The translations under genes and the position numbers were made by a program. From Candidatus Baltobacteraceae bacterium (GTDB taxonomy: Bacteria; Vulcanimicrobiota; Vulcanimicrobiia; Vulcanimicrobiales; Vulcanimicrobiaceae): DNA of 64,000 nucleotides. Location: contig DATBTN010000045.1 in the NCBI GenBank assembly GCA_036559195.1, positions 1 to 64,000 on the forward strand, given 5' to 3'. The stretch's first letter is position 1. Each line of letters begins with the position of its first letter. The notes under the pieces were generated by a model that saw only the letters and a program-made list of their open reading frames with translations, searched no databases and was not told the DNA's origin. Shown here one piece after another: positions 32,660 to 35,314 of this stretch.

Positions 32660-33224
32660 CGCGCCGTTGGAGTTCGAAAGCGACCCCGGCGCCGGCGTAA
32701 CCGACGATGTCGCCGATTGCGAGGACGATGCCGGTCGTATGCGGCGTATAGTTGGCCACGATGACGGAGGCCAGTAAAACCACGCCGCCGGCCAGAGCGT
32801 AACGCTGGCCCTGTGCGCCGATGAAGAGCAAGGGAATGGCGATACAGATCGACCAGATCGCGGACATCGCCCAGTGCGTAAAGATGTTGGGCGCTCCGAC
32901 CTCGGCGACGAAGGCGGCGGCGAGGCTAATCCAAAGGATCCGAATGAACTGCAGCTCCGTGACGTTGAGGCGGCCGCTCTTCTGATAGCGCCGCACGTAG
33001 GCGATGCTTATAACGATGGCGGCCAGGTAGAGACCGCCGTCCAGGACCGTCTGCCAGAGCTGCCACGCCCCGGCATTAACCGCCATCTGGGCCGTGAGAT
33101 TGAGAATGGCCGCCACGACGCCCCACAGGATAAAGAGCGTGCCGCGAGTCTGGATCGCCCGGTTGGCTTGAGCGAGAATGCGATCCACCATCTCCAAGTG
33201 GTCGCGTACTTCGGTAGGCTCCAT
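32652..33224 (-). CDS. Membrane protein of unknown function (first gene of ABC operon)
   Basis: 190 aa, cytoplasmic N terminus (EPTEVRDHLEMVDRILAQANRAIQTRG), then about five hydrophobic helices. Its place before the regulator and ABC genes suggests a sensor or transporter accessory. ATG at 33224 follows GAGGACGCA. Similar leader genes next to winged-helix regulators are common in high-GC uncultured bacteria, but I do not recognise a named family. Confidence 0.7.
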   Translation of the reverse strand: MEPTEVRDHLEMVDRILAQANRAIQTRGTLFILWGVVAAILNLTAQMAVNAGAWQLWQTVLDGGLYLAAIVISIAYVRRYQKSGRLNVTELQFIRILWISLAAAFVAEVGAPNIFTHWAMSAIWSICIAIPLLFIGAQGQRYALAGGVVLLASVIVANYTPHTTGIVLAIGDIVGYAGAGVAFELQRRDG

Positions 33225-33247
33225 TGCGTCCTCACATGACTTAGATT

Positions 33248-33300
33248 AGTCTATATTTCAGACTCATCTGCATTATATGCTTGCGAGCGCAAGTCGTCAA
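33248..33300 (-). promoter_or_regulatory. Promoter with palindromic operator for the membrane protein/regulator/ABC operon
   Basis: On the minus strand TTGACG (33300-33295), 17-nt spacer, TATAAT (33277-33272). The spacer contains the perfect palindrome CTTGCG-AG-CGCAAG (33280-33293). A second inverted repeat, AGTCT-N7-AGACT (33248-33264), lies at the transcription start. Both are well placed for repression by the winged-helix protein of this operon (inference). Confidence 0.7.
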
Positions 33301-33325
33301 GTCCTGGGGGAACCGGAGAATCGCG

Positions 33326-33355
33326 TTGACAGCGCGGGTGGCGGGGTGCTAATGT
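33326..33355 (+). promoter_or_regulatory. Promoter of rplU, with nearly leaderless start
   Basis: TTGACA (33326-33331), 18-nt spacer, TAATGT (33350-33355). The expected transcription start near 33362 is only a few nt before the rplU ATG at 33365, and no Shine-Dalgarno is present, so a leaderless message is likely. The -35 is 25 bp from that of the divergent ABC operon. Confidence 0.7.
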
Positions 33356-33364
33356 TCTCAAGTT

Positions 33365-33691
33365 ATGTACGCGATCATCGAGACCGGCGGTAAGCAGTAT
33401 AAGGTCTCCGAAGGCGACGTTATTACGTGCGACCTGTTGGAGAGTGAAGTCGGATCGGACGTAAAGTTCGAACGCATCGTCCTGGCGAGCAACGGCCGCA
33501 GCGACGACGATGCCGTGACGGTCGGCGCGCCGACGGTTAATGGCGCCGTCGTGACCGGCACCGTTCTGCATCAGGGCAAGGCCAAGAAAATCCTGGTTTT
33601 CAAGTATAAGCCGAAGAAGCGCGTCCGCAAGCTCATCGGCCACCGCCAGCGCTTCGCCCAGGTCAAGATCACGAAGATCGACCTCCCGTAG
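33365..33691 (+). CDS. rplU: 50S ribosomal protein L21
   Basis: 108 aa. MYAIIETGGKQYKVSEGD at the start, then VLASNG, FKYKPKKRVRKLIGHRQ and TKIDLP at the end: all typical. Next gene is prp. In most genomes rplU, prp and rpmA are contiguous; rpmA is not found here. Confidence 0.97.
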   Translation: MYAIIETGGKQYKVSEGDVITCDLLESEVGSDVKFERIVLASNGRSDDDAVTVGAPTVNGAVVTGTVLHQGKAKKILVFKYKPKKRVRKLIGHRQRFAQVKITKIDLP

Positions 33692-33699
33692 GGGACGTC

Positions 33700-34029
33700 G
33701 TGCTCGAGGTCACGTTTTGCAGAGACAGCCGGGATCGGCTGTCTTCTGTTTTTGCAAGCGGCCATGCCGAAGCGGCCGAACACGGCGAGGACGTCGTCTG
33801 TGCCGCCGTTTCCGCGATCCTGCAGGCGGCCCGGCTGGGCCTCGAAGCGCATGCGAAGGTGCCGGTCGATGCAACCATGAGTTCCGGGCGGATGTCGCTA
33901 GCATGGCCGGAGGCGGCCCGCGACGACCTCGCCCTTCAGGCGATCGTGGCGACGGCAGAACTCTCGATCCGTCAGATAGCGACCCAATACCCCGATCACG
34001 TTCGCGCCCAATCCCGGCTCGAGTCGTAA
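33700..34029 (+). CDS. prp: Ribosomal-processing cysteine protease Prp
   Basis: 109 aa. Catalytic His22 and Cys34 are in GHAEAAEHGEDVVCAAVSAI, the same numbering as in characterised Prp. In bacteria that have it, Prp removes an N-terminal extension from L27 during ribosome assembly. GTG start at 33700, 8 nt after rplU. A stand-alone presence without the L27 gene next to it is unusual. Confidence 0.9.
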   Translation: MLEVTFCRDSRDRLSSVFASGHAEAAEHGEDVVCAAVSAILQAARLGLEAHAKVPVDATMSSGRMSLAWPEAARDDLALQAIVATAELSIRQIATQYPDHVRAQSRLES

Positions 34030-34078
34030 CAACCTCGCCCGAAAGCGGGTAAGATCGGAGTAGCACGAAGGAGGCAGC

Positions 34079-34366
34079 ATGTCAGACTCATTCCGGTCGA
34101 CGCCGGAGAAACAATGGTCCGGTAGTAACGGCTACAAGGGCGCAAATGCGGAGAATTCAAGCGTGAGCTACGAAAATACTGAGAACGGTGCGAATACCGA
34201 GGTCGGCAAGACGCTGTTGGTGGGCGTGCTGGGAGGCATCCTCTCGGCGGCCGGTTATCTGGTCTACCAGCGCCTGCCCGACGAGCAGAAAGAACGTTTG
34301 CACGGACAAGTCAAAGGCGTGCTCCAGCAGCGTATCAACGAACTTCGACAGAATTTCAATATTTAA
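34079..34366 (+). CDS. Small single-span membrane protein (YtxH-like), unknown function
   Basis: 95 aa. Polar N terminus of about 40 aa rich in Asn/Ser/Glu, a hydrophobic helix LLVGVLGGILSAAGYLVY (about 45-63), then a charged amphipathic tail QQRINELRQ. The architecture resembles YtxH/YtxG-type proteins. Preceded by a strong AAGGAGG 7 nt before ATG. It takes the place where rpmA would be expected after prp; it is clearly not L27. Confidence 0.65.
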   Translation: MSDSFRSTPEKQWSGSNGYKGANAENSSVSYENTENGANTEVGKTLLVGVLGGILSAAGYLVYQRLPDEQKERLHGQVKGVLQQRINELRQNFNI

Positions 34367-34390
34367 AAATCGTCTCCGATAAAACCATAG

Positions 34391-34416
34391 AGAAAACGCC
34401 CGTCCGGGCGTTTTCT
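34391..34416 (+). terminator. Rho-independent terminator
   Basis: AAAACGCCCG-TC-CGGGCGTTTT followed by C and T residues, 24 nt after the small membrane protein stop. Ends the rplU-prp transcript. Confidence 0.9.
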
Positions 34417-34432
34417 TACTAGGGAGCTATGA

Positions 34433-35314
34433 ATGCGCGTAACGGTCGAGCAAATCGCCGACATGGCGTTAATCCGCGACGAGCCTCTCGCCTCGATGTT
34501 CACCTTGAGCCCGTTCGTTTGGAAACGCGAACGCGGATACGATCTGCTCGTTCGCGCCGTCAACCGCTCGGAGATCGCAACTCAAAAAGTGGCGCGCATC
34601 TACTACGGCCACTCGCAAGACGGTATCGTCTTTACGATGGACGAGGCGCCGGCGCTCGCGCCGGGTCCGCAGCCCGAAGACCGCGACGGATGCGAAGATC
34701 CAACTGCCGACTACGACGCCGGAACGCTCTACGTATACTACACGGGTTGGAATCAAGCATTGCTCGCGGGGCAACTGATGCTCGCCGTCGGCCCCGACGG
34801 CCGCCATTTGCAAAAGCGCGGCGTTTCGATTCCGTGGACGCAAGAGCGCAAGAACCCCAAAGAGGCAACGCTCGTGCGCGCCGGCGACGGCACGTGGAGA
34901 CTCTTTTTTGAATATGCGGCAGGCGAGGCATCGAAGATCGGCATCGCCCGCTCGAAGCGCGTCGACGGACCGTGGGAGATTCAGCCGGACCTCTTCTCCG
35001 CCCGCCCGGACCTGTGGGATCGGTGGCATTTGAGCACCGGGCCGATCGAACAAGTCAACGGGGTTCCGACGATGTTCTATAACGGCGCCACCCACGACGC
35101 GAAGTGGCGTATCGGCTGGATCACATTCGACGACGACTACACCCGCGTCGTCGACCGGTGCGTCGATCCCGTGATCGTGCCCCCGCCGCCGGATATCAAC
35201 GACACCGATATCGCATTCGCTGCCTCGGCGCTCGAAATGAACGCCGGAACCGTTTGGCTCTACTATTCGATCAGCGACCAGTATATGAAGCGGGCGACGC
35301 TGCGCGTCTCGTAA
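34433..35314 (+). CDS. GH130-like beta-propeller glycosidase/phosphorylase
   Basis: 293 aa, soluble, built of short repeats typical of the five-bladed propeller: YYGHSQDGIVF, the family mark CEDPTADYDAGTLYVYYTG (EDPR-like in GH130), KEATLVR..WRLFFEY, and GPIEQVNGVPTMFYNGA. GH130 enzymes act on beta-mannosides. Whether this one keeps the key acids is not checked; Arg of EDPR is Thr here. The start may be GTG/ATG nearby; GTG-free ATG at 34433 is taken. Confidence 0.65.
   Translation: MRVTVEQIADMALIRDEPLASMFTLSPFVWKRERGYDLLVRAVNRSEIATQKVARIYYGHSQDGIVFTMDEAPALAPGPQPEDRDGCEDPTADYDAGTLYVYYTGWNQALLAGQLMLAVGPDGRHLQKRGVSIPWTQERKNPKEATLVRAGDGTWRLFFEYAAGEASKIGIARSKRVDGPWEIQPDLFSARPDLWDRWHLSTGPIEQVNGVPTMFYNGATHDAKWRIGWITFDDDYTRVVDRCVDPVIVPPPPDINDTDIAFAASALEMNAGTVWLYYSISDQYMKRATLRVS

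Follow-up and report, generated by a model that had tools for sequence, protein, structure and literature searches.

Separation of rpmA from rplU and prp across the Vulcanimicrobiota, with a conserved gene for a predicted membrane protein in the rpmA slot and a conserved hairpin in the start of prp

Introduction

The closest described counterpart of the locus considered here is the rplU-ysxB(prp)-rpmA operon of the Firmicutes, which combines the genes for ribosomal proteins L21 and L27 with that for Prp, the cysteine protease responsible for L27 maturation (MEROPS C108 in S. aureus; PMC9405229). The published cleavage site reads MLxx(D/N)LQ(F/L)F'A(S/H)KK, and the list of phyla with a long L27 given in the same work does not include the Vulcanimicrobiota (PMC9405229).

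The window analysed in this study, a 64,000-nucleotide stretch from a Candidatus Baltobacteraceae bacterium, carries a coupled rplU-prp pair. An initial annotation, made from the letters alone, saw no rpmA behind it and noted in its place a small membrane protein whose gene has its own strong ribosome-binding site and lies ahead of a terminator. L27 was proposed to be encoded elsewhere, possibly through a split of the operon; an assembly error, or an L27 without extension that would leave Prp with another target, were named as findings that would speak against this proposal.

Results

Organization of the window locus

The coordinates and description of the coupled pair proved correct. rplU (33365-33691, plus strand; PF00829, E 3e-36; TIGR00061, E 8e-31) is followed by prp (33700-34029, plus strand; PF04327, E 4e-20), whose GTG start codon lies 8 nt past the rplU stop codon, and no L27 motif was found near prp at this locus. 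The Prp profile match spans the whole protein (72.3 bits versus a cut-off of 27; PF04327, MEROPS C108); His22 and Cys34, previously described as intact, indeed align with those of the S. aureus Prp structure 4PEO, and the GH...C pattern of the dyad recurs in all 126 Prps of the phylum. The next open reading frame (34079-34366, plus strand) encodes, as annotated, a small membrane protein of 95 residues with one hydrophobic helix, hereafter SM; it has a strong ribosome-binding site (GAAGGAGG), and 3' of it lies a terminator-like hairpin (34391-34416, plus strand) that is bidirectional, with a T-run on both strands. Past this terminator, positions 34433-35314 hold a glycoside phosphorylase/hydrolase gene (GH130/GH43-like) whose matches fall below Pfam cut-offs.

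L27 is encoded elsewhere throughout the phylum

L27 is encoded elsewhere, as anticipated: the sole rpmA of the assembly (2.48 Mb, 80 contigs) is found on another contig (G000:C49:22969-23205, minus strand), where it is followed by obgE. The synteny comparison that had been recommended, a search for L27 and Prp in 117 genomes of the class and a further 32 genomes of the phylum (Vulcanimicrobiota, formerly Candidatus Eremiobacterota), yielded 126 prp and 129 rpmA loci and supports the proposed split, which turned out to be phylum-wide with SM as the conserved occupant of the rpmA slot. None of the 126 prp loci has an L27 motif or rpmA beside prp, and none of the 129 rpmA loci has rplU or prp beside rpmA; instead, obgE lies at most 400 nt behind rpmA in 120 of the 129. 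Wherever prp and rpmA share a contig they are at least 103 kb apart, the distance seen in genome G121, and in the one-contig genome G104 their positions are 0.60 Mb (prp) and 3.43 Mb (rpmA). Outside the phylum, Prp was detected in 10 of 143 sampled genomes, and the order rplU-prp-rpmA is present in each of these 10 Prp-bearing genomes, on which the outside comparison rests.

The L27 of the window's genome begins MFQFDLQLF'ASKKG (MFQFDLQLFASKKGAGS) and thus bears a 9-residue extension, so that the Prp motif sought at this N terminus is present. Its sequence MFQFDLQLFASKK fits the long-L27 motif xx(D/N)LQ(F/L)F'A(S/H)KK, and its sole departure from the full published site (PMC9405229) is F rather than L at position 2. 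Such an extension is encoded in 127 of the 129 rpmA loci (126 identified by script and one, L068, by eye). The fragmentation of the window's genome into 80 contigs and the short L27 of some Prp-bearing bacteria (PMC9405229) had made it conceivable that rpmA was missing through an assembly error, or that Prp served another target than an extension-less L27. This reading has practically no probability left and is already refuted: rpmA has been located and has a promoter, neighbours and an extension of its own; the split is repeated in the one-contig genome and at all 126 prp loci; and the extension in 127 of 129 rpmA loci led us to reject an extension-less L27 and, with it, another Prp target.

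The two extension-less genes belong to genomes G123 and G124 of family f6 (98% and 97% complete), where L27 starts M-AHKKG and prp is absent. As far as gene content can tell, Prp goes with the L27 tail, because in this family both are gone; being a single evolutionary event in one lineage, the co-loss is supportive of a coupling between Prp and the extension, short of proving it. True loss of prp was also considered for G011, G112, G115, G016 and others and was rejected; in these prp-less genomes outside f6 the absence extends to rplU and SM and thus probably reflects assembly gaps. In G131, rplU lies at a contig edge.

By comparison with S. aureus, Prp of these bacteria would cut L27 between Phe9 and Ala10, its substrate being made from a distant locus, and we infer such cleavage for the phylum. 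Extension variants of the type DLTRF'A and (D/N)LQRF'A were observed at rpmA loci L066-L090 (other classes) and in family f3, and the specificity of Prp may have shifted along with these P2/P3 changes. Eleven Prps from a few genera (L172, L175-L184) have a His-Cys stretch 3 residues longer (GHVELPETSSDEFSLVC). The prp of G057 (L144) carries an in-frame TAG within the hairpin region described below, which is either an error of sequencing or the mark of a broken gene.

Separate promoters of rplU and rpmA

The window's rplU is preceded by a promoter (about 33326-33364, plus strand) made up of TTGACA, an 18-nt spacer and TAATGT, the only site of this geometry found in a scan of the window. Because the distance from TAATGT to the ATG is 9 nt and no ribosome-binding site is present at this ATG, the rplU transcript is probably leaderless. 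In the window's family, f1, a -10 box is placed 8-10 nt upstream of the ATG in 79 of 80 scorable rplU and 86 of 86 rpmA genes (for rpmA, as at L001 1760-1810, minus strand), nearly all of them devoid of a ribosome-binding site, a combination suggestive of leaderless transcripts for both genes; this arrangement is found in none of the f2, f3 or other-class genes, most of which have a ribosome-binding site. The f1 boxes provide each half of the split operon with its own promoter. Since the rpmA box sits 8-10 nt before exactly the ATG that opens the extension, the latter is very likely translated in the window's family.

A conserved hairpin within the start of prp

A scan for terminators identified a terminator-like stem at 33722-33745 which, with its T-run, occupies positions 33722-33757 (plus strand), that is, approximately codons 8-16 of prp. 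A single match of this kind does not exceed what chance predicts for the window, and its conservation was therefore tested. The perfect 10-bp stem was found in 52 of 88 prp genes of the window's order (families f1 and f2), being absent from about 40% of them, whereas randomisation of synonymous codons produced a mean of 0.37 perfect stems, with a maximum of 2 over 300 trials. In an alignment limited to sequences with at least 8 of the 10 pairs, a choice that favours inner pairs, 7 of 12 pairs show compensatory changes (31 cells versus 10.4 in shuffles), and sliding the stem partners abolishes the signal. The two outermost pairs, which lie outside that selection, are likewise changed on both sides (8 cells), with fewer than 60% of sequences pairing there. 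Together these comparisons demonstrate, for f1 and f2, a conservation of the prp hairpin beyond the protein constraint. Rfam returned no match for 33200-34500.

The hairpin has the sequence features of an intrinsic terminator, namely a stable G+C-rich stem conserved by compensation and a T-run, which follows 42 of the 52 perfect stems and is weak in the other 10. It may thus partly terminate transcription from the strong rplU promoter, yielding much L21 and little Prp and SM, and we infer attenuation at the prp start from these features. Ribosomal protein operons are often autoregulated, and the element could alternatively be a translational operator or protein-binding RNA, for instance one serving L21 autoregulation. 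We regard this alternative as rather unlikely: it would account for a stem more constant than its T-run and for a core palindrome that occurs at one site in the genome, but a freely varying 4-nt loop on a covarying stem is more in keeping with a terminator than with a site bound in a sequence-specific manner, and a T-run does lie behind most stems. The single occurrence of the palindrome also led us to reject a genome-wide repeat.

The hairpin is absent from f3 and from the other classes although these also have the split, which places its origin after the split. Attenuation at the start of prp, which can spare L27 only because rpmA has left, would accordingly be a consequence and not a cause of the older split.

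SM, the predicted membrane protein in the rpmA slot

In 122 of 126 loci, SM lies behind prp in the same orientation, with genes beyond it that vary by lineage (lspA, ileS, a transglycosylase and others). It persists where prp is lost. The exceptions to the prp-SM order are G134, in which no SM was detected; L165, where the locus runs to the contig end; G002, where SM lies ~3 kb further with prp intact; and G127, where prp and SM share one open frame (L097 1180-1809). The constant position behind prp in spite of changing downstream genes, and the shared frame of G127, would be expected if SM served Prp as a dedicated partner or anchored it in the membrane, and had come to occupy the rpmA slot because it works with the protease. 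However, within the G127 frame SM has an in-frame ATG of its own with a strong ribosome-binding site before it, which led us to downgrade this apparent fusion as evidence; G002 keeps its prp at a distance from SM; and in f6, where prp and the L27 extension are gone, rplU is directly followed by SM. The loss of prp with SM remaining behind rplU speaks against a role as dedicated Prp partner, which we regard as improbable. The retention of rplU-SM in f6 makes SM separable from Prp and, judging from gene order, SM travels with rplU and not with the protease; it would then be a membrane protein co-expressed with L21. That SM is itself cut by Prp was rejected, the cleavage motif being absent from 122 SM sequences.

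SM sequences diverge to 12% identity but keep a layout in which a variable N-terminal part is followed by one membrane helix and, at the C-terminus, by a charged helix. In the AlphaFold2 model, which is of moderate confidence (mean pLDDT 63), a disordered N-terminal part precedes helices 38-65 and 68-92, the C-terminal one being amphipathic. No Pfam or NCBIfam family matches the window's SM at cut-off, relatives of SM give only scattered matches with E 0.001 or worse, and no solved structure related by sequence was found. This divergence, the lack of a known family and the gene's own ribosome-binding site are compatible with SM being an unrelated gene carried along by operon inertia and unconnected to ribosome biogenesis, a reading that we consider less likely than not, given that the adjacency of SM and rplU is kept across families with different other neighbours and after loss of prp. 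SM is predicted to be located in the membrane. Charge is more positive past the membrane helix in 100 of 120 SMs, a bias that suggests a cytoplasmic C-terminus; the open frame of G127 would argue for the opposite topology. Outside the phylum, an SM match was found in 1 of 143 genomes (G238), away from rplU. SM is also encoded in two Rhodospirillales-titled records (L287, L300), whose titles look mislabelled, as their contigs agree in length with those of G080 and G075 of the window's own family.

Discussion

We consider it probable that the locus reflects the splitting of an operon long ago, with Prp/L27 maturation of the ordinary kind, separately driven L21 and L27, and attenuated prp-SM transcription. 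An ancestral rplU-prp-rpmA-obgE unit would have split before the sampled Vulcanimicrobiota lineages diverged, giving rise to rplU-prp-SM and rpmA-obgE units, each with its own promoter. More tentatively, rplU transcripts in the window's order may be terminated in the prp coding start by the embedded conserved terminator, leading to low levels of Prp and of a new L21-linked SM family; SM may link the making of 50S subunits to the membrane.

L27 and Prp are here ordinary representatives of a known pathway. Their presence extends putatively cleavable L27 to the Vulcanimicrobiota, outside the phyla listed in PMC9405229, and suggests that Prp keeps its substrate though the genes have parted, a coupling that the natural co-loss tests. 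A conserved membrane protein, so far without a name, travels with rplU, and a conserved element lies in the prp coding start; Vulcanimicrobium is the one cultured genus. The component parts are of known kinds. A literature search of incomplete coverage found no description of the split throughout the phylum, of the SM family or of the hairpin within prp, all of which appear undescribed.

YqjD/ElaB-type and TatA-like proteins combine one short glycine-rich membrane helix with a charged or amphipathic helix beside it. SM resembles them in adjoining such helices and differs in the order of its parts and in matching no profile at curated cut-off. The prp hairpin, for its part, is comparable to the intrinsic terminators and attenuators of ribosomal protein operons in its G+C-rich stem, short loop and T-run, and in its position between a ribosomal protein gene and a gene in low demand; unlike these, it lies inside the downstream coding start, under protein and RNA constraint at once, and matches no Rfam family. 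As to the operon, the Vulcanimicrobiota share with the Firmicutes the coupling of rplU and prp, the catalytic dyad and a long L27 with an extension ending LF'A(S/H)KK, and they differ from them in the separate rpmA-obgE unit, with rpmA directly behind prp in 0 of 126 loci, in the presence of SM in the rpmA slot, in the hairpin inside prp (window's order) and, in some lineages, in the cleavage motif variants DLTRF and (D/N)LQRF.
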